In this document: piece after piece, positions 20,027 to 43,234 of the stretch | Numbering within the stretch: the first letter of the stretch is position 1 | How the letters are laid out: each line of letters starts with the position of its first letter | NCBI RefSeq assembly: GCF_900129175.1 | Contig: NZ_FQUI01000007.1 | Span: forward strand, 1-64,000 | DNA from: Marinitoga hydrogenitolerans DSM 16785 | Lineage (GTDB): Bacteria; Thermotogota; Thermotogae; Petrotogales; Petrotogaceae | Direction: 5' to 3' | DNA length: 64,000 nt | Translations under genes and position numbers: made by a program | The notes under the pieces: generated by a model | What the model was told of the DNA's origin: nothing | The model's input: the letters and a program-made list of their open reading frames with translations, nothing else | Database searches by the model: none

Positions 20027-20060
20027 AAATAAAATCCCCTAAAAAGGGGATTTTATTTTT
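20026..20060. terminator. Bidirectional terminator
   Basis: A long stem, aaaataaaatcccct with aggggattttattttt, has a short loop. It separates the convergent sugar importer and signalling operons. Confidence 0.85.
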
Positions 20061-21762
20061 ATTTATAAATTTCAGAAACTCCACCAACAGTTCTTATTGA
20101 TGATTGTCTTCTAAATATTATTCTATATATCGCTGACTGCAATCTTTCAGGCAATTCAAAAAATTTCGCTTCATATTGACTGTGATACAAAAGTTTCTTT
20201 TTGGATATTAACGTTGCAGGAACAAATAATTTTTCACCAAATTCTTCAATATATAACATTATTACATCATCTTGCTTAAAGATATCATTTTCATTCTCTA
20301 TTGTAAATATTATTCCTTCTGCACCAAAAACCTTACATCTTGCTGACTTCATTTTTGATTTTAATACATTCCACATAACAGGAGTTAATTTTTCTCTTAA
20401 AATTGGAGTGATTTCGTTTTTATGACCAATTAAAAATTCAAAACTCCAAAAAACTTTTAATTTCGATTTTTTTGATTCTCTTTTTTCAATAACTTTAATA
20501 ACATAACCATATGGATTTTTTAAAATAACTTGAGCCTTTGCAATTAAAGGAAAATCCTTTGTTGTAATTTTTACTTTTAAAATAGATCCTACATTTATTT
20601 GTTCTATAGTTCTTACGTTAACATACAATGTATCACCCATAACCTTTTCGATAACTCCTGTTAATTCTATTAATTCTTCTCCTAATCCTTCATATCTTAA
20701 ATTAATTGTTCTGGATTGCAATATTAATCCCCAAAATTTACCATTATCAAATTCTGTATAATAAATTTTTAATGCTTCAATTGCTGCATTAACAACATTT
20801 TTATCATATAACCTTCCAGAATTTTTTTCCATATGTTCAATTATACTTTTAGTCTCTTCTTTTCCTGAAAGAACCATTTCTCCATCTATATAATTGGCAA
20901 TAATTAATACATTATCTTCTAAACTCAAATCTTTTTTCTTTAAATATCCCGTCCCACTCATATTTTCATGATGATTCAAAGCTAAATCAACATATGGTTT
21001 CATTAAAACATTTCCAAAAAACATTTCTTCAAGTCTTTTTAAATGGACACTTATTAATGGGTCTTTTTCTTTTGAATCTACATTTTCTATATATTCAGCC
21101 AATACTTTTTCTGAAAACCATATATAACCAAGGTCATGTATAAATGAGGCTATTTGCAATTTATACAAACTATCTTCATCTAAACCTAATAATGCACCTA
21201 TAATACCTGTCAAATCTGAAACTCTTAATGTATGTTCATACAAAACTTCAGAATGGTTTTGAAGCAAAGTGAGATAATTTTTAATAAAAGCATTTATAGT
21301 ATATTTTGTATATTTATTAAAATAAATAGCATCTATATTTTTTTCAAATACAGATATAAATCTTAGAAATATATCTTTTTTATCTATATTAAAATTACCC
21401 TTTGAGATTAAATAAAAAAATCCATAATTTTTTCCTTTCTCTGGTAATAATATTGTTTTTATAACAAAATCATCAAATCTATTATTGATTAAAAAAGAAA
21501 ATTCATTGGAAAATGTAACTTTGAAATTCGATTCTCTCTTTTCTTCAAAAACATCATACATTTTTTTTGGAACAGCAAAAATAACGTCTTCTGAATTGTT
21601 GAAATATTCTTTGTTTAAATTATCAAATGTGAATATATTTAGAAAGCTTGTACCTTCTAAATTTACAGCTAATCCTATAAATATTTCCTGATTTTGAAAT
21701 AATGTTCTGGAATATATATTTATAGCTCTTTTAATAATTTCTATATTAAAAATTCTAATCAC
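20059..21762 (-). CDS. HD-domain (degenerate HD-GYP) protein with C-terminal PilZ-like domain
   Basis: A 567-residue soluble protein and the last gene of the chemosensory operon. The N-terminal ~150 residues are unassigned. An HD domain follows (about 175-345) with HTLRVSDLTGIIG, FIHDLGYIWFS and NHHENMSGTGYLKKKDL. This matches HD-GYP except that the GYP triad reads GYL. The C-terminal part resembles PilZ/YcgR-type c-di-GMP receptors: beta-rich, ending YEAKFFELPERLQSAIYRIIFRRQ. If so, it may couple binding and turnover of c-di-GMP. The GTG start at 21762 overlaps an apparent binding site (ggggtgat), so the exact N-terminus is uncertain. Confidence 0.72.
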   Translation of the reverse strand: MIRIFNIEIIKRAINIYSRTLFQNQEIFIGLAVNLEGTSFLNIFTFDNLNKEYFNNSEDVIFAVPKKMYDVFEEKRESNFKVTFSNEFSFLINNRFDDFVIKTILLPEKGKNYGFFYLISKGNFNIDKKDIFLRFISVFEKNIDAIYFNKYTKYTINAFIKNYLTLLQNHSEVLYEHTLRVSDLTGIIGALLGLDEDSLYKLQIASFIHDLGYIWFSEKVLAEYIENVDSKEKDPLISVHLKRLEEMFFGNVLMKPYVDLALNHHENMSGTGYLKKKDLSLEDNVLIIANYIDGEMVLSGKEETKSIIEHMEKNSGRLYDKNVVNAAIEALKIYYTEFDNGKFWGLILQSRTINLRYEGLGEELIELTGVIEKVMGDTLYVNVRTIEQINVGSILKVKITTKDFPLIAKAQVILKNPYGYVIKVIEKRESKKSKLKVFWSFEFLIGHKNEITPILREKLTPVMWNVLKSKMKSARCKVFGAEGIIFTIENENDIFKQDDVIMLYIEEFGEKLFVPATLISKKKLLYHSQYEAKFFELPERLQSAIYRIIFRRQSSIRTVGGVSEIYK

Positions 21763-21767
21763 CCCAT

Positions 21768-23135
21768 TTAATCATCTTTTGCAGGTATTTCTAATTTAAA
21801 CAAGATTTCTTTCTCTTCTTTTAACGAATAATTGAAATTGATATGGTAATTATTTAACATAACCTTTGATATATTAATAGACTTTTCAAATTCTACAAAA
21901 TTTATTGAAAGAAATGTACTTTTTATTTCTAAAATATAAAACATACCCTTTTTACACAAATCAACATTAAATATTTTATATTCATTAAACTTGGCATATT
22001 TCAAAACAGAAACAATAATATTTAAAACAGCATTTAAAAGTATTTTCTTTGAACCATATATAAATGCATCAATATATGTATTAATATTAAACTTTATATC
22101 TGGATCCAAAAAAACTAATTTTTTCTCTATTTCTTTTAGTAACCTTTTCAAATCAATTAATTCAATACTTTCTATATTATAAAATCTTGATTTATATGAA
22201 GACACTGCATTTTTTATTCTATTAATTAATTTTTTTATCTCATCTGCAGCATCAGGATATTGTTCCTCAAAAAAGAAAGTAATTAAATTTAAAGAGGTTA
22301 ACGCACTATTTATCTCCTGAATCAAATCCCAGGATACAAAATTCATTAAAAGTGTTTCCTTAGCAAGATCTGAATAATTATCTAAAATTTTATTTAATTC
22401 CTCGGCATGTTTGATTAATAAAATCTTTTCAAAAAACTGTTTTATCTTCTCTACTATTTCTTCATCATATTCATAATAATACTTAATCTCAAAGTATTTA
22501 TCTCTTATTTTTATTAACCCTTTTTTCTTGGGTAATCTGTGTTCAACAAATTTTATTTTTACGTCATATTTTTTTTCGAGTTTTAACGTAATTTCATTCA
22601 TGAAGTCTATAACATTTTCTGTTTTCGAGTACGTTTCTACAATTAATTCCATTACATATACATAATTTTTAAATCTCTCTTTTTCTTTATGCATTTCTTC
22701 TAATAATATAATGTTATATATAGAAGGTAATAAATATTTTCTTTCTTTAAAAAGGTATTTTAAATCTTTTTCTACAAATTTTTCTTTTTCTCTATTTAAA
22801 TTTATTATGCCAATTAATTTATCTTTAAAATATAGCGGAAAAATTATAGATGATATAATATCTTTCTTTTTTTTAGAAATATTAAAGTTTTCTAAATCTT
22901 CATCATTTATAATAATAGGTTCTTTTTTTTCCAATACCATTTTATCAATATTTCCTATAGAAATATTTTCTACATTAATCTTTAAATTTTTTTCAATTTT
23001 AAATATTATATCTTCCTTATCATTCATAACTATTAAGGAACCTGAGTCCACATTTAATTTATCAACAATTCTATTAAATATATCATTTATATATTCATCA
23101 AATTCCTTAAACGTTAAATTTGAAAAAAACCCCAC
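21768..23135 (-). CDS. GAF-domain protein with histidine-less kinase-like C-terminus (pseudo-kinase)
   Basis: A 455-residue soluble protein. Residues 1-145 form a GAF-like domain (NVDSGSLIVMNDKEDIIF, SIIFPLYFKDKLIGIINLN). Near 265-300 a helix pair resembles the phospho-acceptor hairpin of histidine kinases, but the block reads SWDLIQEINSAL, with Gln273 where His is expected. The C-terminus keeps the order of an ATPase domain but lacks recognisable N, G1 and G2 boxes. It probably binds partners and does not phosphorylate. A paralogue is encoded at 41713-43098. Start GTG at 23135 follows gaggtgat. Confidence 0.65.
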   Translation of the reverse strand: MGFFSNLTFKEFDEYINDIFNRIVDKLNVDSGSLIVMNDKEDIIFKIEKNLKINVENISIGNIDKMVLEKKEPIIINDEDLENFNISKKKKDIISSIIFPLYFKDKLIGIINLNREKEKFVEKDLKYLFKERKYLLPSIYNIILLEEMHKEKERFKNYVYVMELIVETYSKTENVIDFMNEITLKLEKKYDVKIKFVEHRLPKKKGLIKIRDKYFEIKYYYEYDEEIVEKIKQFFEKILLIKHAEELNKILDNYSDLAKETLLMNFVSWDLIQEINSALTSLNLITFFFEEQYPDAADEIKKLINRIKNAVSSYKSRFYNIESIELIDLKRLLKEIEKKLVFLDPDIKFNINTYIDAFIYGSKKILLNAVLNIIVSVLKYAKFNEYKIFNVDLCKKGMFYILEIKSTFLSINFVEFEKSINISKVMLNNYHINFNYSLKEEKEILFKLEIPAKDD

Positions 23136-23146
23136 TTTTTATCACC

Positions 23147-23539
23147 TCACAAAAGGCCTAAAGAACTCTTCCACCTTTTTACTCTTTTTACATTTTCTTT
23201 TACTATTTGAAGCATTTGTTCAGGTTCAAAGGGTTTTTCAATAAAATCTGTTGCTCCTAATGTTAATGCATGAAGGACATAATCAGGACTTGAATATGCT
23301 GTCATCATTATTACCGTTGTTAAAGGAGATAACTTTTTTGCTTTTCTTAATACTTCTATACCATCAAGATCTTCCATAATGATATCAAGCAAAATAACAT
23401 CATATTCTGTATTCTTTATCATTTCAATAGCTTTAATTCCACCTTCTGCCAAGTCAACTTCATAATTAGCCTGTTCTAAAAATTTTTTTAATACGTTTCT
23501 AATAACATTATCATCATCAACTACTAATATTTTTCCCAT
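23147..23539 (-). CDS. Single-domain response regulator (receiver)
   Basis: A 130-residue receiver protein: MGKILVVDDDNVIRN supplies the acidic pair, VILLDIIMEDLDG the phospho-acceptor Asp, MMTAYS the conserved Thr and FIEKPFEPEQM the Lys. There is no output domain beyond a short RVKRWKSSLGLL tail. Two other receivers in this island (35602-36006 and 36908-37315) share the ending pattern I/VxRWKxxL/F, suggesting related partners. It lies three bases after the HD-GYP gene in transcription order. Confidence 0.93.
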   Translation of the reverse strand: MGKILVVDDDNVIRNVLKKFLEQANYEVDLAEGGIKAIEMIKNTEYDVILLDIIMEDLDGIEVLRKAKKLSPLTTVIMMTAYSSPDYVLHALTLGATDFIEKPFEPEQMLQIVKENVKRVKRWKSSLGLL

Positions 23540-23541
23540 AA

Positions 23542-24684
23542 TTATACCTCCTCCAAAAAGCTGTTTATCTTTAAAAACTTAATAAATTCTTCTGTTAGAT
23601 ATGGATCAAATTGCTTACCTTTACTTCTTCTTAATTCGCTTATAGCTTCATTAATAGCAAATGCTTTTCTATACGGCCTTGTTGTTGTTATTGCATCAAA
23701 TGCATCAGCTATAGTAATTATTCTCGACTCTAATGGAATTTCTTCACCATTTAACCCATCTGGATATCCTTTGCCATCCCATCTTTCATGATGATGCCTA
23801 ATAATTTTCCCAATTCTTTCAAATCCTTCAAAAGAATTTACAAGTTCTTCTCCTTTTATCGGATGTTCCTTTATTTTTTCATATTCTTCTTTGGTTAATT
23901 TCTCTTTTTTCAACAATATTGTTTGAGGTATAGATAATTTTCCTATATCATGAAGAGCGCTTGCGAGAAATATATCATTTATTATATTTTCTTTTCCAAT
24001 AGTTTTTGCAAGAGACGTTGCATAATAAGATACTCTTTCAGAATGCCCTTTTGTATATGGATCATAATAATCAATTGCTTTTAAAAAAGCAAATGCTGTA
24101 TTTTTAAGATATTTCTTTTGTTTATTATATAATTCTCTTGACATAAAAAAAGTGGAGGCTATATTGCTTATTACTCTTATCAGTTCAATTTGATGTTGTT
24201 TAAAATTATTTTTTACTAAATCTAATATAATATAGCCGTGTAAAGTGAATGTTTTTATAGGTATAACCAGACTTTTTTCAACATTCATTATTTTATCCTT
24301 TATAACATTTATGTTTTTTATATTGTTATAATAAAAATTTTCAATTAATTTTATTTCATCTATTTTTTCCTTTAAAATTGCAATATTATAATAGAGTTTT
24401 TTACTGTGACCAAAAATTGAAATAAATCTAAAAACGTCGTCTTCTTTTTTTAATATACAACCATACTTAACTTCTGGCAACAATTCCACAAAAACTGATA
24501 ATATTTTATTAAAGTATTTTTCCATAGAAACATCTATAGATATATTAGAGATTAAATCTACAACTTTAACAAATCTATTATTTAGTTCTTCTAACTCCTT
24601 ATACGAATATTCAAGTTGCTCATAAGCATCTTCAAGTTCCTCTTTAAGCATTCTTAATTCTTCATATTTTTTTTCATAGTTCAT
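23542..24684 (-). CDS. HD-GYP cyclic di-GMP phosphodiesterase with coiled-coil and GAF-like N-terminus
   Basis: A 380-residue soluble protein. A coiled coil (about 1-45, KKYEELRMLKEELEDAYEQLEYS) leads into a GAF-like region with the block YGCILKKEDD and FGHSKKLYYN. The HD-GYP domain (about 205-375) is complete: HSERVSYYATSLAK, ALHDIGKLSIP, HHHERWDGKGYPDGL and IADAFDAITTTRPYR. It should hydrolyse c-di-GMP to GMP. The ATG overlaps the cheB stop by 11 bases. Placement inside a cheA operon suggests it is an output of that pathway. Confidence 0.9.
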   Translation of the reverse strand: MNYEKKYEELRMLKEELEDAYEQLEYSYKELEELNNRFVKVVDLISNISIDVSMEKYFNKILSVFVELLPEVKYGCILKKEDDVFRFISIFGHSKKLYYNIAILKEKIDEIKLIENFYYNNIKNINVIKDKIMNVEKSLVIPIKTFTLHGYIILDLVKNNFKQHQIELIRVISNIASTFFMSRELYNKQKKYLKNTAFAFLKAIDYYDPYTKGHSERVSYYATSLAKTIGKENIINDIFLASALHDIGKLSIPQTILLKKEKLTKEEYEKIKEHPIKGEELVNSFEGFERIGKIIRHHHERWDGKGYPDGLNGEEIPLESRIITIADAFDAITTTRPYRKAFAINEAISELRRSKGKQFDPYLTEEFIKFLKINSFLEEV

Positions 24685-33457: not shown

Positions 33458-33829
33458 ATGAAAATACTCCATATTGATGATTCTAATCTTTCTTTAAAAA
33501 TGCTAAGGGTTTTATTGGAATCACATTTTGAAAATACCGAAATTATATCAATAAAGCCTGATAAATACAAAGAACATAAAGCTAAATTTAAAAAATATGA
33601 TATGATTATTATTGATTTAACTATGCCTGTGATTTCTGGTTTTGAGATAATTGAAGATTTAAAAAAAGAAAATATCGATATTTTTAAAGTTGTATATTCT
33701 TCTAATGTTCAAAATATTGTAAAGAAAAGACTCTCAAAAGATATAAATTTATTTTTAGAAAAACCTGCAAATAAGGAACAAATCAAATTATTAAAAAGGA
33801 TGTATGAATTATGGAAAGAAAAAAAATAA
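33458..33829 (+). CDS. Single-domain response regulator (receiver)
   Basis: A 123-residue receiver: MKILHIDDSNLSLKMLRVLL, MIIIDLTMPVISGF, VYSSNVQN (Ser in place of Thr) and LFLEKPANKEQ. The ATG follows gaaggtga. It is the first of four coupled genes. Its last 19 bases overlap the start of the CheX-like gene, which suggests that the receiver is the substrate of that phosphatase. Confidence 0.92.
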   Translation: MKILHIDDSNLSLKMLRVLLESHFENTEIISIKPDKYKEHKAKFKKYDMIIIDLTMPVISGFEIIEDLKKENIDIFKVVYSSNVQNIVKKRLSKDINLFLEKPANKEQIKLLKRMYELWKEKK

Positions 33830-34308
33830 TTATAGGAATTAAAAAATCGGAAACAGTTTTAAGAAATTTAACTGGTATGGATATTATTATGGAATTCGAT
33901 AAATTACTAATATCGAAACTAAATAATATTATAAATAATAAATCTTATACCTTATATCAAACGGCAATAAGTAAAGAAAAAAAATGGGACTTTTATTTCA
34001 CCATGCTTTCAGACGAATTTTTAAAATTTCTGGCTTTAGTAGAACACTACTCACAAATTGACACCATTGAAGCAGAAGATGTTTTAGATTCTTTTTTAGA
34101 AATTGGCAATATAATTTGCGGAAATGTTATAAGTGTTTTAACCAGTGGTCATAATGAGGTTAAATTCGCTATTCCTATATTGCTTAAATCCTCAGAAATT
34201 AAATCGTTAACGGTAAATGCGATAAAAATCAAATTTGAAGTGAAGGAAACAGATATTACTGGTTATTTATTATTCGCCTTTAATGAAGGTGACAGAAATG
34301 TATATTGA
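33811..34308 (+). CDS. CheX/CheC-like phosphatase domain protein
   Basis: A 165-residue protein. The block DSFLEIGNIICGNVISVL carries the ExxN pair that CheC/CheX/FliY phosphatases use to remove phosphate from CheY-like receivers. The surrounding pattern (N-terminal beta strand, long helix, then beta sheet) fits CheX. Overall similarity is low, so the call rests on this motif and on the receiver gene directly upstream. It overlaps both neighbours. Confidence 0.65.
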   Translation: MERKKIIIGIKKSETVLRNLTGMDIIMEFDKLLISKLNNIINNKSYTLYQTAISKEKKWDFYFTMLSDEFLKFLALVEHYSQIDTIEAEDVLDSFLEIGNIICGNVISVLTSGHNEVKFAIPILLKSSEIKSLTVNAIKIKFEVKETDITGYLLFAFNEGDRNVY

Positions 34309-35599
34309 TATTGACTACATTTTAATTCCAATAGCTGTTATTAATGAAAATGGAGAAATCATAAAGAGTAATTTATCTTTTAAAAATTTTTTTGATAATA
34401 AAAATTTCTTTGAACTACTAAACAAAAATTTTATTAATATAATCAAAAATATTTTAAAAGAACGTGGTCTATTTTTTAGTATTGAAAGAAAAAACAAAAA
34501 AATATTAAAATCAAACTATTTCTTCACCATAAATATTCATCCTATTAACGATCTTTTCATTGTTGAATTAACACCGAAAAACAAAGAAATTATTGCAGAA
34601 AGCTCTTTTAATAAAAAAATATCTATGCTTTATTCTTTAATCAATTTTACAATAAAGATTCCTAACCTTTATTATTCATTAAAATCTCTTAATAAAAAGG
34701 AAGTTATAGAAAACTTTATTAATCTTCTAATTGAATATAATCTAATTTCTAACTATTCTGAAGAAAAAAAATATAAGCATTATTTTGAAATATTTGATAC
34801 TAAATTTTATTATGATATAACAGAAGATATTCCTATAAACATTAAAAATTTTATTATAAAGATTATAGATATTCATTCCCAAGCATTAGAAATAATGTTT
34901 AAAAACATATACTCTCAAAAAAAGAGTTTTGATTATTTGAGTATTGCAAATAATTTAATCGTTGGTATGTTTCATGAAATAAATAATCCATTATCAATTA
35001 TATTAATGGAAACAGAAATGCTTTCTGCAAAGATTGATGAAAAATATCAAAAAGACCTTAAAATAATTTCTGATAATTTATATAGAATTATTGAAATAAC
35101 AAAATTATTTAAAAGTCTTGTTAAAGGTGATGAAATACAAATAAAATTAAATTTAATAGATATACTAAAAGATGTTGTTAAATTTATGCGTTATAAAGCT
35201 AATCAAAAAATTCAAATAAATTTATATGTCGATTCATGGAAACCACATTATATTATTGGAAATCGCCAGGAATTGATGATTGTATTTTCGAATTTAATAG
35301 AAAATGCTATTGAAGCTATACAAGAAACTGAAAAAAATGGAATTATAAATATATCCTTAAATGAATTTCCTACTTTTTATAACCTTATTATTGAAGATAA
35401 TGGTATAGGTATTTCAGAAGAAAATATAAATAGAATATTTGAACCTTTCTTTACAACAAAATCAAAAAGAGGTATGGGTTACGGATTATTTTTTGTATAT
35501 AATATTTGCATGAAACATAATATTGAAATAAATGTCGATAGCACTTTAGGTAAAGGCACAACCTTCATTTTAAAAATACCTAAAATAAAGGAGGAGTGA
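34298..35599 (+). CDS. Sensor histidine kinase, soluble
   Basis: A 433-residue kinase without membrane helices. An N-terminal PAS-like segment (~1-95) is followed by an unassigned region. The phospho-acceptor block is GMFHEINNPLSIIL (His226). The ATPase has NLIENAIEAIQ (N box), DNGIGISEENINRIFEPFFTTK (G1/F) and GMGYGLFFVYNI (G2). I start it at ATG 34298 behind gaaggtga, overlapping the CheX-like gene by 11 bases. Its likely partner is the receiver gene two bases downstream. Confidence 0.92.
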   Translation: MYIDIDYILIPIAVINENGEIIKSNLSFKNFFDNKNFFELLNKNFINIIKNILKERGLFFSIERKNKKILKSNYFFTINIHPINDLFIVELTPKNKEIIAESSFNKKISMLYSLINFTIKIPNLYYSLKSLNKKEVIENFINLLIEYNLISNYSEEKKYKHYFEIFDTKFYYDITEDIPINIKNFIIKIIDIHSQALEIMFKNIYSQKKSFDYLSIANNLIVGMFHEINNPLSIILMETEMLSAKIDEKYQKDLKIISDNLYRIIEITKLFKSLVKGDEIQIKLNLIDILKDVVKFMRYKANQKIQINLYVDSWKPHYIIGNRQELMIVFSNLIENAIEAIQETEKNGIINISLNEFPTFYNLIIEDNGIGISEENINRIFEPFFTTKSKRGMGYGLFFVYNICMKHNIEINVDSTLGKGTTFILKIPKIKEE

Positions 35600-35601
35600 T
35601 T

Positions 35602-36006
35602 ATGGCTTGGAAAGTTTTAATTGTTGATGATGAACCTGGAATAAGGGATGTTTTAAAAGATTATATAGAAATGAATTTCGAACATACAAAAATTGAAACT
35701 GCTGAAAATGCCGATATTGCATTAAAAAAAATAAACGAAGATCAATATCATGTTGTTTTACTAGACATTGTTATGCCTGGATTAGATGCTTTTGAATTTT
35801 TAAAAAAAGTAAAGGCTTTAAATTCATTAATACATGTAATAATGATTACTGGAAATTCCACAATGGAAAGGGTGCTTGAAGCTATTGAATCAGGTGCTGA
35901 TGATTATATACTAAAACCTTTTTCAACAAAAGAAATTGAAGAAATATTAAAATGTTCCTTTGCAAAAATTGAAAGATGGAGAAACGCATTCAAAAACTCA
36001 TTCTAA
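35602..36006 (+). CDS. Single-domain response regulator (receiver)
   Basis: A 134-residue receiver: WKVLIVDDEPGIRDVLKDYIEM, VVLLDIVMPGLDAFEFL, MITGNSTME and YILKPFSTKEIEE. The C-terminus ends AKIERWRNAFKNSF, resembling the receivers at 23147 and 36908. Start ATG 35602 follows ggaggag. Last gene of the plus-strand signalling operon; a strong terminator follows at once. Confidence 0.93.
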   Translation: MAWKVLIVDDEPGIRDVLKDYIEMNFEHTKIETAENADIALKKINEDQYHVVLLDIVMPGLDAFEFLKKVKALNSLIHVIMITGNSTMERVLEAIESGADDYILKPFSTKEIEEILKCSFAKIERWRNAFKNSF

Positions 36007-36907: not shown

Positions 36908-37315
36908 CTATAATGTGTTATTCAACACATGTTTCCATCTATGCAATTTTCTAATGCTATATTCTAAAACATCTTTAACATCATCAATTGAAAATGGTTT
37001 AATAATATAATCATCAGCTCCATTCTTTATAGCTTTTATTATATTATCATAATTATTATGAGCTGTAACTATAATCACCTGTATCAATGGATTAAGTTCT
37101 TTAATCTTATTCAAAAATTCAAATGAATCCATGCCCGGCATCATTATATCAAGAAAAATTATATGTATAGCTTTCCTCTCATTTAACATTTTTAATCCAT
37201 TATCTGCATTTTCTGCTTGAAAAATCTCAACGTCATTAACTATATTTAAAATATATTCCTTTAAAAACTCCCTTGATGTAAATTCATCATCAACTATCAT
37301 TATCTTCCACTTCAA
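36908..37315 (-). CDS. Single-domain response regulator (receiver)
   Basis: A 135-residue receiver: WKIMIVDDEFTSREFLKEYI, IIFLDIMMPGMDSFEFL, IVTAHNNYDN and YIIKPFSIDDVKDVL. The tail YSIRKLHRWKHVLNNTL resembles the ends of two other receivers in the island. Start is TTG at 37315, overlapping the stop of the receiver-HD-GYP gene. Probably receives phosphate from the hybrid kinase branch. Confidence 0.92.
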   Translation of the reverse strand: MKWKIMIVDDEFTSREFLKEYILNIVNDVEIFQAENADNGLKMLNERKAIHIIFLDIMMPGMDSFEFLNKIKELNPLIQVIIVTAHNNYDNIIKAIKNGADDYIIKPFSIDDVKDVLEYSIRKLHRWKHVLNNTL

Positions 37316-38361
37316 TTTAACTTTCCCCCTTCGTAAAATGTTTTTATTTTATCTTTTATTTTAAATAATGTTTCAACTACTTTTGGTGAATACATTATTC
37401 CACTAAGCCTTTTTATTTCATCAAAACCTTCTTTTAATTCTCTTTTATCTTTATATATTCTTTTGGAAACTATTGCATCAAAACTATCTACAACTCCTAC
37501 TATCAACCCTTCTATTGGTATCTCATTACGTTTTAATCCTCTTGGATAACCACTTCCATCCCATCTTTCATGATGAGTTATTGCAATTGATGCTGCTAGT
37601 TTTAATATAGATGATTCGGATTTTGATAGAATTTTATATCCTATTGCTGCATGATCTTTCATCACTTCATATTCTTCTATTGTTAACTTTCCTGGTTTTA
37701 ATAATATATTATCTCGAATACCTATTTTTCCTATATCATGTAATGGTGCTGCAAAATAAATCTCATTTATTAAATTACTATCTAAATTCATCGCTTGTGC
37801 TATTAATTTTGAAAGACTCCCCACTCTTTTTGTATGCTCATATGTTTCATCATCTCTGAATTCAGACACAAGATACATTTTTTCAAGAAGTTCAAAAACC
37901 AAATTTTGATTTTTTTTATATAAATTCTCAAGATTTTCAAGTGCCACAATATTTTCATTTAATAGAGATGCGAAAAATTGATTTTTATTTTCGTAAAATA
38001 TTTTTACTTTTAAAATTGTATTCAACCTTATTTTTAATTCATCAAAATTAACTGGCTTTATTAAAAAGTCATCTGCTCCATTTTTTGCTGCTTGTTTTAA
38101 ATCGCTTTCATTTGTCGCCGTTGTAAGAATAATTATAGGTGTTGGTATATTCATATCTCTTATTTTTTTTATAGTCTCAAAACCTCCCATAACAGGCATA
38201 TATATATCCATAAGTATTACGGATACAGCTTCTTTTTTCAATATTTTCAAGGCTTCCTTTCCATTTGATGCAATAATAGGTTCGTAATTTAATTCTCTTA
38301 TATATTCTGATATTATCAAACATGTGGTTGAATCATCATCAACTATTAAAATTTTTTCCGT
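37312..38361 (-). CDS. Receiver-HD-GYP cyclic di-GMP phosphodiesterase, probable non-ATG start
   Basis: An RpfG-type protein: receiver (VILMDIYMPVMGGFET, ILTTATN, FLIKPVNFDEL), coiled linker, then a full HD-GYP domain ([55 protein letters not shown]). The first usable canonical codon is TTG at 38319, which would delete the first strand and acidic triad. The frame continues upstream as EKILIVDDDSTTC, with ggaggg seven bases before an ACG codon at 38361. I therefore extend the gene to 38361. It overlaps the hybrid-kinase 3' end, and is its likely phosphorylation target. Confidence 0.85.
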   Translation of the reverse strand, partial: TEKILIVDDDSTTCLIISEYIRELNYEPIIASNGKEALKILKKEAVSVILMDIYMPVMGGFETIKKIRDMNIPTPIIILTTATNESDLKQAAKNGADDFLIKPVNFDELKIRLNTILKVKIFYENKNQFFASLLNENIVALENLENLYKKNQNLVFELLEKMYLVSEFRDDETYEHTKRVGSLSKLIAQAMNLDSNLINEIYFAAPLHDIGKIGIRDNILLKPGKLTIEEYEVMKDHAAIGYKILSKSESSILKLAASIAITHHERWDGSGYPRGLKRNEIPIEGLIVGVVDSFDAIVSKRIYKDKRELKEGFDEIKRLSGIMYSPKVVETLFKIKDKIKTFYEGGKLN

Positions 38362-41300
38362 TTTTTATCCCTCCATCCTTTAAAAATTTTTCTATAATTT
38401 CTTTTAAAATTTCAAATTCTCCTAACAGCTCTTCAAAATTTTTTTCTGTATTTTTTTTATTCTGGTTTATTTCAATTTTTTCTGCTATTTTTGCCAATTT
38501 ATTCGCTGAAACATTTCTCGATGAGCCTTTTATTGTATGTGCATAAAATTTAATATTTTCCTCTTCATCTTTATCCAACGCAATTTTTAACTTTTTTATA
38601 TTTTTTTCTGTGTCATCTATATATTTTTCTAAAATTTTCAAAGCCAAGTCTCTTTTATTTAATACTCTTTTCATAAATTCTTCTTTATCAAAATGAGTAT
38701 TTTGGAGAAAAATTCTTTCATCTTGGTTTTCAATAAACTTTTTATTTAAACTTTTGCAATATTTTTTTATTATTTGTAAAAGTCTCTCTATTTCTATTGG
38801 TTTTGTTATAAAATCATTCATCCCACTTTTTATTGCTTCTTCTTTATATTGGAGTATTAAATGAGCTGTCATAGCTATTATAGGGATACTTTTATTAAAT
38901 TCCCTTATTTTTTTTGTTGCTTCATATCCATTCATCACTGGCATTTGTATATCCATAAAAACTATATCGAAATAATTATTTTTTATCATTTCAATTGCTT
39001 CTTCACCATTTTCAACTGTAATAACTGTAGGTCCTAATGATTCTATTATTATTCTTCCAACTTCTCTATTTATTTCATCATCATCCACATACAATATTTT
39101 TATTTCATTGGATATTTTAATCTTCTCTTCATCATTTTTTTGTTTTATAATTTCAGGTTTAAAAATAGATATAATACTATTTATTAAATCATTTCTTTTT
39201 ACAGGCTTTCCTATAATAGCATCAAATTTATAATACTTTATTTCTATTTCAATATCTCCATCTTTATTTAAAATAGATGATAATAATATTTTCTTTACTT
39301 TTTTTAAATCTTTATCTTTATTCATTTCCTCCGCAAGTTCCAAACCTGTCATTTCCGGCATTTGTCTATCAGTCAATAATATATCGTATCTTTTTAACTT
39401 TAATTTTTTTAATGCCTCTATACCATTTCTGGCTTCAACACATTTCATACTCAAACTTTCAATATATTTTCTTATTATAAACCTATTTGTTTTGTTATCA
39501 TCCACAATTAATACGTTCTTTTCCGAAAATTTTATAATTTCATCAATTTCAAAAGATTCTCTACTTTCAATTTTGAATGGTAATTTGACTAAAAATGTTG
39601 TTCCTATATTTGGAACAGACATTACTTCAATTTCTCCATTCATTAATTTCACCAATTTATATACAATGCTTAATCCTAATCCTGTTCCTCCATAAAGACG
39701 TGATGTTTTAGATTTTTCCTGCACAAATGGCTGAAAAATTTTTTTTATATTTTCATTTCTGATCCCAATTCCTGTATCAATTACTTCAAAATTAATTATT
39801 ATATCGTTTAAATCCATATTCTTTTTTTGAGTAGTTACCTTTAAATACACTTCTCCTTTTTCTGTAAACTTTATGGCATTATTTACTAAATTATTTAAAA
39901 TTTGCTTTAATTTGGTTGTATCTCCTTTTAAAACTTTTGGAATATTTTCATCCACATAAAAATTTAATTCAAGACCTTTATTATATGCAATATATGCATT
40001 TGTATCTATTATCTCCGCTATTTCTTTTTCAATATCAAAATATATTTCTTCAAAATATATTTCATTTGATTCCAATTTTGATAAATCTAAAATATCATTA
40101 ACAAGGCTTGATAAAAGTTTGGCACTATTGTTTAACATATCTAAATATTTTTTTTGTAAGTCATTTACTTTTGTATTTTTAAGTATATATATCATTCCTA
40201 TTATTCCATTTAATGGTGTTCTTATATCATGACTCATATTTGCAAGAAACTCTGTTTTTATATTACCAGCTTTTTCTGCCTTTTTCTTTTCATTAATAGA
40301 CAAAGCTAAAAAAATTCTATTCTTAAAATAAATACTGCTTAAGTTTCCTAATATTTCCAATATTTCTAAAGATTCTTTAGAAAAATCATTTTCATCTTTT
40401 TTATCAATACATATATTTATGTAAAAATCATCTTTTATCTTAACACTATATATGGCGGATTTTTTAATTTGCTTTGATGCATTTTCTAATATCTCTTTAT
40501 TAATTCCATCATATTTATCCAAAATGTTGTCAGCTATAACTATTTTTGAATTAATACCTTCTTTAAAATTATCACTTACCATATGAATTTTTCTTAACAT
40601 TTCTAAATTATGTCCCACTGCACTAAGAAAAAATACTTTATTTTTATTTTTTAACATTACGCTACCATAGTCAGCCTCCGGAATTATCTCTAAGATTTCA
40701 CTTAATATTCTTTTACTAAACTGTTGTATTGTATATTTACTTTCTGAAAACTCTGATATGATGCTTACTATTTTAGAAAATTTTATAAATAATCTTTTAT
40801 TCATTTTCAATAAATCTTCTGTTATTTTATTTTGCAAATTCAACTCATCATTATGTTTTTTTAATTTTATCAAAGATTTTTCATATCTCATTTTATAAAT
40901 AGCCGCTGTAAAAAATACTGCGATAAAAATTACCATAAATAGCATAAATAGATAATATAGCCATTTTGGGATTTTCATTGTTACTCCATAAATATATTCA
41001 TCCAATAATTTATAATATATTGAATTTTTATCATTTTTATATTCAGTAAGATAATCATCAATTTTATCTAATATTCCTTGATTTAAATTATTGCTATTTT
41101 GAATTAACAGTCTTATAGGAAACACTTCCATTCTAAACCCAAAAAGATTATGTAATAATTTTTCCATATCTTTTGGTGGAATTATCGCAAAATTTGTCTC
41201 ATCTTTTTTTAATTTATCTATTTTTTCTTCTAATGTATTCACTTCTATAATTTTACCCAGTTCACTAAATACCTCATAAAAATCTGTTAAAAAATCTCCT

Positions 41301-41698
41301 TTTTTTAACACAAATATCTTATTTTTTGTTTTACTGATTTCAATATCTTTTTTATGTAATACTCCCATATATGTAAGAAACAAACCGTTTTTCAATTTTG
41401 TTTTTTCATCTTTTTCATTAACAAACATCTCAATAAAAAACTTTGGTAATAAATCTATTTCATTGTTATCTAGTTTATTTTCTAATTCTGCTTTTGTTCC
41501 ATATATAAATTCAATATTCCATTTTTCTTGTTTTGCAATTTCTCTTAATAAATCTACTACAAAACCTTTAAATATATAATGAAAATTTCCATTTTCTGTA
41601 TAAAAAAAGGGTGGTGTGTTGTATATTCCAACTTTCAATGTAGTTCCAAATATTGAAATAGAAAATATTATAATAAAAAAAATCATTATTTTTCTCAT
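38339..41698 (-). CDS. Hybrid sensor histidine kinase (solute-binding sensor, GAF-like, kinase, two receivers, Hpt)
   Basis: A 1119-residue membrane-bound phosphorelay protein. Domains in order: signal peptide (1-19); family 3 solute-binding sensor (~20-240, TLKVGIYNTPPFFY); membrane helix (~246-268); coiled coil; GAF-like domain (~335-460, ADYGSVMLKNKN and VGHNLEML); phospho-acceptor NMSHDIRTPLNGII (His490); ATPase with NLVNNAIKFTEKG and GGTGLGLSIV; two receivers (~745-865 and ~885-1000); and C-terminal Hpt with FYAHTIKGSSRN. The external domain probably senses an amino acid or similar solute. Its 3' end overlaps the receiver-HD-GYP gene. Confidence 0.94.
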   Translation of the reverse strand: MRKIMIFFIIIFSISIFGTTLKVGIYNTPPFFYTENGNFHYIFKGFVVDLLREIAKQEKWNIEFIYGTKAELENKLDNNEIDLLPKFFIEMFVNEKDEKTKLKNGLFLTYMGVLHKKDIEISKTKNKIFVLKKGDFLTDFYEVFSELGKIIEVNTLEEKIDKLKKDETNFAIIPPKDMEKLLHNLFGFRMEVFPIRLLIQNSNNLNQGILDKIDDYLTEYKNDKNSIYYKLLDEYIYGVTMKIPKWLYYLFMLFMVIFIAVFFTAAIYKMRYEKSLIKLKKHNDELNLQNKITEDLLKMNKRLFIKFSKIVSIISEFSESKYTIQQFSKRILSEILEIIPEADYGSVMLKNKNKVFFLSAVGHNLEMLRKIHMVSDNFKEGINSKIVIADNILDKYDGINKEILENASKQIKKSAIYSVKIKDDFYINICIDKKDENDFSKESLEILEILGNLSSIYFKNRIFLALSINEKKKAEKAGNIKTEFLANMSHDIRTPLNGIIGMIYILKNTKVNDLQKKYLDMLNNSAKLLSSLVNDILDLSKLESNEIYFEEIYFDIEKEIAEIIDTNAYIAYNKGLELNFYVDENIPKVLKGDTTKLKQILNNLVNNAIKFTEKGEVYLKVTTQKKNMDLNDIIINFEVIDTGIGIRNENIKKIFQPFVQEKSKTSRLYGGTGLGLSIVYKLVKLMNGEIEVMSVPNIGTTFLVKLPFKIESRESFEIDEIIKFSEKNVLIVDDNKTNRFIIRKYIESLSMKCVEARNGIEALKKLKLKRYDILLTDRQMPEMTGLELAEEMNKDKDLKKVKKILLSSILNKDGDIEIEIKYYKFDAIIGKPVKRNDLINSIISIFKPEIIKQKNDEEKIKISNEIKILYVDDDEINREVGRIIIESLGPTVITVENGEEAIEMIKNNYFDIVFMDIQMPVMNGYEATKKIREFNKSIPIIAMTAHLILQYKEEAIKSGMNDFITKPIEIERLLQIIKKYCKSLNKKFIENQDERIFLQNTHFDKEEFMKRVLNKRDLALKILEKYIDDTEKNIKKLKIALDKDEEENIKFYAHTIKGSSRNVSANKLAKIAEKIEINQNKKNTEKNFEELLGEFEILKEIIEKFLKDGGIKNGKNFNS

Positions 41699-41712: not shown

Positions 41713-43098
41713 TTATTTTATAGGTATAAAAATTTTAAATATCGTATTTTTTGTATTTTCAATTTTTAATTTCATATGAAAATTATCCAGAGTTTGTTTG
41801 ATAATATTAATATCAATATCTTTTTCTTGAATTATTATATTTTTTAAAAAAATTTCTATAACGCCACATCTCTCATCTTTTTTATATATTTTAATTATTA
41901 TTTCTTCTGTATATTTTTGAAAATGTAGTATTTTAAAAATTTCAACAATAAAAGATATCAATGTGTTTTCAAAAATTTTTTTATCTATATATAATTCTAT
42001 ATCTTCCTTAACATTTTTTTCCATTTTAAAATTTAAAATTCTTAATTTATCAATTATTTCTTTCATAAATTTACTTAATGAGATCTTAGAGATCTCTGTT
42101 TTTATAAATTCTTTTTTATATGCAGTAATGGAATTTTTTATTCTATCAAGTGAAGGAATAATTTCGGAAAGTTCATTTTTGCAATTATCATCAATTGTAT
42201 AAAGGGATAAGTATATGCTAGAAAGAGCACTGTTTATTTCTTGGAAGACTTTCCAGGATGTAAACCTAAGCATTAAATCTTCTCTGGACTCTTTTAAAAT
42301 CTTTTCTATCTTTTTATCTATTTCTTCTAATTTCTTTAACCTTAATAGTTTTTCTACGAACATAAGTATATTAATATATTCTGTTATATCTACCTGTCTT
42401 TTTTCTTCAAAAAAATCTAAAACATTTAATTCATCTGTATATTTTATTTCTATATTATAATATTCATCATTTACTTTTATCGAATATTTTCCCTTTTCTT
42501 TCGTTCTTTTAATATAAATATCAATATGAAATTCTTTTCTCAGATTTTCAATTAAATGTTCTATAAATCTTTCCTGGGTTTTTGTTTTTTCAAAAATATT
42601 TAGTATTAAACTTATTAATTTAGTTTGATTTTCAAAAAAAGTTTTTTGAGACGCTATCTTTTTTATATAAAATATATTTGATATGGTTGACATCAACAAT
42701 TTTTTATGATTTTTTAGTATTTCAATCTCTTTAGTCTCATAAAAAGAATCTTTTTTATTTAAATTAATAATACTCAACAACTCTCCATTAAGATATATTG
42801 GAAATATTATTGCGTCTTTAATACCTCTTTTTAGGTGATCTTTTAATCCTGATATTTTTTTTATATCTGACAAATGAATAAGATTTTTATTTTTTAAAGC
42901 CCACTTATCTATTATTCCAATATCCAAAGATTCTATATGAATATTGATATTTTTTAAGCTTTTAAAAATAACTTTTTTATTATGATTAAAAACAAACATA
43001 GACCCAGAATACGAATTTGTTTTTAATAATATATCATCAAATAATGTTAATAAATTCTCTTCAATTGTTTTAAATGGTATTTCAGAATAAAATTCCAT
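41713..43098 (-). CDS. GAF-domain histidine-less kinase-like protein (paralogue of 21768-23135)
   Basis: A 461-residue soluble protein with the same layout as the pseudo-kinase at 21768-23135: N-terminal GAF-like domain (SYSGSMFVFNHNKKVIF, AIIFPIYLNGELLSIINLN), long helical middle, then SWKVFQEINSAL with Gln286 where a kinase would have His, and a C-terminal domain without ATP-binding boxes. The SWxxxQEINSAL block is the best-conserved part, so it is presumably functional. Start ATG 43098 follows aagtgat. First gene of the hybrid-kinase operon. Confidence 0.65.
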   Translation of the reverse strand: MEFYSEIPFKTIEENLLTLFDDILLKTNSYSGSMFVFNHNKKVIFKSLKNINIHIESLDIGIIDKWALKNKNLIHLSDIKKISGLKDHLKRGIKDAIIFPIYLNGELLSIINLNKKDSFYETKEIEILKNHKKLLMSTISNIFYIKKIASQKTFFENQTKLISLILNIFEKTKTQERFIEHLIENLRKEFHIDIYIKRTKEKGKYSIKVNDEYYNIEIKYTDELNVLDFFEEKRQVDITEYINILMFVEKLLRLKKLEEIDKKIEKILKESREDLMLRFTSWKVFQEINSALSSIYLSLYTIDDNCKNELSEIIPSLDRIKNSITAYKKEFIKTEISKISLSKFMKEIIDKLRILNFKMEKNVKEDIELYIDKKIFENTLISFIVEIFKILHFQKYTEEIIIKIYKKDERCGVIEIFLKNIIIQEKDIDINIIKQTLDNFHMKLKIENTKNTIFKIFIPIK

Positions 43099-43234
43099 AA
43101 ATATCACTTCTTTACAAAAAATAAATATTTGTTATCATCTATATTATATATTTTTTTTATAAAGATTGCAACTTTTTTATAATTACATCTTTATTTCTCT
43201 AACTTCATTATCTAATAATTATTTAAAATTAATA

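Follow-up and report, generated by a model that had tools for sequence, protein, structure and literature searches.

The window analysed here is a stretch of 64,000 nucleotides from Marinitoga hydrogenitolerans DSM 16785, a bacterium of hot vents. On its reverse strand, at 21768–23135, lies the gene for a 455-residue protein, PK1, which was assigned as a GAF/DHp-like/CA-like pseudo-histidine kinase on the evidence of its open reading frame, Pfam, an AlphaFold model, PDB fold matches and orthologues in all seven Marinitoga genomes searched (42–69% identity). The GAF domain (residues 9–140; 22716–23111, reverse strand) was identified by Pfam GAF_2/GAF matches (GAF_2: 4.7e-7, 30.5 bits versus a cut-off of 28.6) and by PDB profile matches to GAF proteins. 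The DHp-like helices (residues 256–319; 22179–22370, reverse strand) were recognised from the modelled helices, from hhalign within the whole C-terminus and from conservation. They include the emptied H-box SWDLIQEINSAL (residues 268–279; 22299–22334, reverse strand), in which the codon for Gln273 (22317–22319) stands at the phospho-His position. The CA (ATPase)-like domain (residues 325–451; 21783–22163, reverse strand) was recognised by hhalign and by its modelled CA fold, and is without the N-box Asn, the D-box, the G-boxes and the lid. Pfam and NCBIfam recognised no part of PK1 beyond its GAF domain: neither library matched a transmitter or kinase domain, HATPase_c included, in PK1 or in its paralogue PK2, and the PK1 sequence profile run against the PDB returned GAF proteins and chance matches only. 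That the Pfam and NCBIfam models miss the PK1 transmitter is a warning for annotation.

The paralogue PK2 is encoded on the same strand at 41713–43107 and was recognised by its open reading frame, its 34% identity to PK1 across the full length (E=4e-43) and its histidine kinase fold matches; no other full-length homologue of either protein was found in the genome. The preliminary description had placed this paralogue at 41713–43098 and stated that it keeps the H-box block, and the block SWKVFQEINSAL is indeed present (42223–42258, reverse strand; Gln codon 42241–42243). The open reading frame reaches a GTG at 43107, giving 464 residues, and the in-frame ATG at 43098 is its codon 4 and probably the true start. 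The PK2 GAF domain scored below the Pfam cut-off, although the protein is homologous to PK1 along its full length.

PK1 sits in a signalling cluster comprising CheR, CheY, CheA, MCP, triple CheW, CheB, HD-GYP, receiver, PK1 and HD/PilZ-like genes. Directly upstream, across an 11 bp gap, is a single-domain receiver (23147–23539, reverse strand; Pfam Response_reg 4e-32), the candidate binding partner of PK1. The operon also encodes an HD-GYP protein whose HD and GYP motifs are both intact, as judged by alignment (23542–24684, reverse strand; HD_5 7e-42), and, 5 bp downstream of PK1, a degenerate HD-GYP-like protein with a C-terminal PilZ-like region (20059–21762, reverse strand; Pfam HD_5 6.6e-10, PilZ below cut-off). 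In all five aligned orthologues the latter carries HD[LI]GY for HDxGK, GYL or GYF for GYP, and AN for AD; thus, two eroded enzymes adjoin at this locus.

PK2 heads an operon of its own, 14 bp upstream of a hybrid histidine kinase (38339–41698, reverse strand) that Pfam resolved as SBP-HisKA-HATPase-REC-REC-Hpt and that has an intact His in its SHDIRTPL H-box. A receiver-HD-GYP gene and a single-domain receiver (36908–37315, reverse strand) complete the operon. In the receiver-HD-GYP gene (37312–38385), the first receiver strand, KILIVDDDS, lies upstream of the first ATG, GTG or TTG, with a stop shortly before that strand and an overlapping preceding gene. A separate four-gene unit at 33458–36006 consists of a weak receiver, a CheX-like phosphatase, an active kinase (HK_34283, at 34283–35599, H-box FHEINNPL) and a receiver, and forms a self-contained two-component unit that has a CheX of its own. 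The receivers at 23147–23539, 35596–36006 and 36908–37315, near PK1, HK_34283 and PK2 respectively, have a C-terminal RWK/RWR tail in common (RWK in the PK2-operon receiver, like that of the 23147 receiver), a hint from sequence that PK1, PK2 and HK_34283 may handle the same receiver subfamily.

We used hhalign to compare a profile of seven homologues, taken over their C-terminal 216 residues, with one of 13 genuine kinases, of which the same genome supplied 11. The two profiles aligned with E=9e-10 over 205 columns, and a reversed-query control gave E=0.04. The CA-like part alone matched kinase CA domains at E=2.3e-7, and the DHp part alone was not significant (probability 8%). The CA-like part and the C-terminus as a whole therefore carry most of the homology signal, and the register of the H-box rests on continuous alignment through the CA domain together with the likeness of QEINSAL to HEINNPL. 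In that register Q273 was paired with the His of SHDIRTPL, E274 with Asp/Glu, S277 with the Thr/Asn at +4, and A278 with Pro. Five of the seven single-kinase alignments that covered the H-box gave the same placement of Q273, among them the one with HK_34283, the active kinase within the window, in which HEINNPL stands against QEINSAL. Gln stands at the phospho-His position in all eight PK1/PK2 sequences, and S268, W269, Q273, E274, N276 and S277 are invariant among them. The claim of the preliminary description that Gln stands where kinases have the phospho-His was thus confirmed, and the demonstration that Q273 replaces this residue in register is a useful addition of the present analysis.

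In the AlphaFold model of PK1 (m4febe335fbcf; mean pLDDT 72), the GAF domain is accompanied by a small second alpha/beta domain, by helices resembling those of a DHp domain and by an alpha/beta sandwich of CA-like form. The DHp helices were modelled at residues 256–266, 269–292 and 294–319 with a pLDDT of only 40–60, and the CA-like region showed the secondary structure of the CA fold with a pLDDT of 72–91 over most of its length. Foldseek matched the model to histidine kinases at about 1e-8 (HK853, YycG, ZraS and phytochrome kinases) and to the NifL-NifA complex. The TM-scores were modest (about 0.5 on the target), since the placement of the domains relative to each other is uncertain. The PK2 model gave the same fold picture and histidine kinase matches, with lower confidence. 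We concluded from hhalign and the structure search that the PK1 C-terminus is a remote but genuine histidine-kinase transmitter.

Losses at the nucleotide site accompany the loss of the phospho-His. The N-box Asn was replaced by Ser, Ala, Thr or Glu depending on the copy; the D-box, both G-boxes and the ATP lid were missing from PK1 and PK2 in the profile alignment; and a GxG motif after the H-box was absent from all eight sequences, in agreement with the earlier statement that the ATPase boxes are missing. The preliminary description had also named two findings that would speak against it, a nearby conserved His and intact ATP-binding residues. A search of the sequences between about −20 and +45 relative to the Gln found no conserved His, the only one present being an unconserved His at +20 in two orthologues, and an alternative phospho-His for PK1 was accordingly rejected. 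Intact ATP-binding residues were sought by profile alignment, not by structural superposition, and none were found. By sequence, PK1 and PK2 are without the features of an active HisKA-type histidine kinase (phospho-His; N, G1/D, F and G2 boxes). Because the acceptor site is Gln and there is no ATP site, autokinase activity and His-to-Asp transfer are excluded on established chemistry.

That PK1 might be a phosphotransfer protein with another acceptor residue, in the manner of Spo0B and ChpT, which likewise derive from kinases and have a dead ATP site, we judge very unlikely. Both proteins retain the DHp His, whereas the DHp region of PK1 has no conserved His, and the sole invariant His of the family, residue 431, lies within the CA-like domain. 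An Hpt-like role was also considered and rejected.

What persists at the emptied site is an invariant E-x-x-S, formed by Glu274 and Ser277, where HisKA proteins have the phosphatase motif E/D-x-x-T/N. On this ground PK1 could serve solely as a phosphatase that speeds dephosphorylation of the 23147 receiver through E-x-x-S, under GAF control; both residues are kept in all copies and stand in register with the acidic residue and with Thr/Asn at +4, His is not strictly required for HisKA phosphatase chemistry, and a receiver partner is at hand. We nevertheless consider this activity unlikely, because Ser is unusual at +4, because the CA domain, which often supports phosphatase activity, has no nucleotide site in PK1, and because DivL had no phosphatase activity (PMC4211667).

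The family was confined to Marinitoga as far as we searched. A profile search of 96 other genomes of the phylum (E<=1e-6) found no PK1 relatives beyond Marinitoga; GTDB contigs yielded none outside the genus when scanned with the single PK1 protein, and M. lauensis only when scanned with the alignment. Weaker matches in other genera (E 1e-5 to 6e-4) aligned via the DHp/CA boundary and proved to be true membrane kinases with HDLRTPL or HELRTPL; we rejected them as members of a wider pseudo-kinase family, and by sequence they support a kinase ancestry instead. Pattern-search matches elsewhere in the phylum were short frames out of context and were rejected as relatives. Separately, the element TGGCGAATCGGACAGGAGGTAAACTC matches the search pattern by chance; it is an interspersed DNA repeat that occurs 22 times in genome G048 (contig L055 and others), which belongs to the same class of bacteria.

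Conservation within the PK1 family peaked at the emptied H-box. The alpha1 helix that carries it was the best-conserved segment (75% mean pairwise identity, versus 41% for the CA-like region and 50% overall), and the 12-residue H-box block was the most conserved window between the PK1s and PK2 (69% versus 29% overall; permutation p about 0.03). Ortholog pairs of PK1 had dN values of 0.19–0.60 and dS values above 1 (saturated), so that dN below dS is consistent with purifying selection on these sequences. The open reading frame was intact in six of the seven genomes, the M. lauensis copy being frameshifted. In the corresponding region of M. lauensis LG1 (L043, G003:C11:81000-100999), PK1, HD/PilZ-like, HD-GYP, CheB and CheA are all split by frameshifts; because the neighbouring genes are broken as well, the most likely cause is assembly indels or sequencing error. 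The notion that PK1 is a decaying kinase remnant with no present function could appeal to this frameshifted copy and to the fast divergence between species (42–69% identity). It is scarcely credible given the intact reading frames, the peak of conservation at the emptied H-box, a dN well below dS, and the probable sequencing error in M. lauensis, and the pseudogene reading was rejected.

The preliminary description had argued that the same substitution in both copies pointed to selected loss of catalysis. Selection is upheld by the seven of seven genomes and by dN below dS, but parallel losses are not: PK2 has an orthologue in none of the six other genus genomes, which return only their own PK1, and the two proteins, by sequence, probably inherited one ancestral loss of the His. 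Given this common ancestry, the presence of Gln in both copies adds no independent support for selection, which comes instead from the conservation of PK1 from species to species. A tree of PK1 and PK2 did not place PK2, a long branch, reliably. We concluded that this is a real pseudo-histidine kinase family under selection, and that PK1 is a pseudo-histidine kinase in the sense of a protein with a kinase fold that has lost its phosphoacceptor and is kept by selection.

The linked receiver, which the preliminary description had touched on just in speaking of neighbouring receivers, provided the strongest clue to the function of PK1. The 23147 receiver lies directly upstream of PK1 in seven of seven genomes, is 75–87% identical among them, and retains its active-site Asp, Thr and Lys. 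In genome G002 only the receiver-PK1 pair is left at the locus, between unrelated genes; genome G005 lacks the adjoining CheA, CheB and HD-GYP genes and keeps the receiver, PK1 and the HD/PilZ-like gene. The HD/PilZ-like gene is next to PK1 in six of the seven genomes and has an orthologue in all seven, unlinked in G002.

This gene content bears on the proposal that the target of PK1 and PK2 is a true histidine kinase, which they would bind or heterodimerise with and whose balance of kinase and phosphatase activity they would shift, in the manner of RocA with CovS and DivL with CckA. The obvious client for PK2 would be the intact hybrid kinase 14 bp downstream, and precedents exist in RocA-CovS (PMC7028121) and in the ChrS pseudokinase, which promotes transfer from HrrS (PMC9491836). 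However, no kinase is consistently linked to PK1. The cluster CheA has no orthologue in G002 or G005 (best matches 37–38%, to another CheA) and G002 is without a close orthologue of HK_34283 (best match 38%), yet the PK1-receiver pair persists; thus the receiver, and not a kinase, is the constant companion of PK1. We regard action on a kinase as improbable for the family as a whole, PK2 being a more plausible case than PK1.

From the fold relationship, the residue losses, the conservation and the strict gene pairing, we propose that PK1, and PK2 by descent, is a soluble GAF-gated pseudo-histidine kinase whose DHp helices bind the 23147 receiver without modifying its phosphate, a reading that we find the most economical and to which we assign an even chance. 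An ancestral sensor kinase would have lost its phospho-His (now Gln) and its ATP site and retained the DHp-CA fold. The GAF domain may bind a small ligand or sense the state of a protein, and the DHp helices would bind the receiver, probably favouring one phosphorylation state, as DivL does with DivK~P. PK1 would then read, hold or release the receiver, leaving the phosphate on it unchanged, and the signal might be relayed to the HD-GYP/PilZ-type proteins encoded alongside. In both HK853-RR468 and DivL-DivK the receiver docks on the DHp helix around the His; if this docking helix is the part that counts, one would expect the H-box helix to be best conserved and the CA-like domain to drift, as is seen in PK1. 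The pairing of receiver and PK1 genes in seven of seven genomes is circumstantial support for DHp-receiver binding; adjacency could mean co-expression and not contact. More tentatively, the two genes may form a module in which the former kinase serves as a ligand-gated receptor of the phosphorylated receiver, a unit that outlives the loss of its operon and that, in PK2, was redeployed beside a hybrid kinase feeding c-di-GMP control. Such a module, if true, would reverse the usual direction of two-component signalling.

Few histidine-less kinases have been characterised to our knowledge, and the best-studied of them, DivL, belongs to a large, essential network; the DivL gene, as far as we know, is not paired with its receiver gene. 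PK1 is small and soluble, comes from a thermophile, has a stand-alone receiver as its one-to-one gene partner and resembles the HK853-RR468 model pair in fold, and for these reasons the idea of a kinase turned receptor for its own regulator is testable with two purified proteins. HK853-RR468, from Thermotoga maritima, is well studied, comes from the same phylum and shares with PK1 the DHp-CA fold and a stand-alone receiver partner, but HK853 has His260 and an intact ATP site and is active both as a kinase and as a phosphatase. ChpT and Spo0B resemble PK1 in their kinase origin and dead ATP domain; they keep the phospho-His and pass phosphate on, whereas PK1 has no such His. In DivL of Caulobacter crescentus, as in PK1, the phospho-His is replaced (Tyr550), the transmitter fold is kept, and the protein works without kinase activity (PMC4211667). 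DivL binds DivK~P, a single-domain receiver like the candidate partner of PK1, and has neither kinase nor phosphatase activity (PMC4211667). It differs in having PAS sensors and not GAF, Tyr and not Gln, some weak nucleotide binding where PK1 has lost the boxes, and the hybrid kinase CckA as its downstream client. PK1 was rejected as a DivL orthologue on its GAF domain, its Gln and its occurrence in Marinitoga and not in alphaproteobacteria. RocA of group A Streptococcus is likewise kinase-like with a degenerate CA domain and functions without a phospho-His (PMC7028121); unlike PK1, it is a membrane protein, acts on the kinase CovS and still has a His (H246) in its DHp domain. NifL is a kinase-like protein of DHp-GHKL architecture and regulates its operon partner through direct contact (PMC8063818), as PK1 may do, but has PAS sensors, a nucleotide-binding GHKL domain and a partner, NifA, that is not a receiver. 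The suggestion that no described family carries this signature therefore stands for the sequence family with Gln, whose transmitter no Pfam or NCBIfam model matches, but not for the kind, which was already known from DivL (with Tyr), RocA and NifL. New here are the strict pairing with a receiver and a Marinitoga-restricted pseudo-kinase with Gln at the site.
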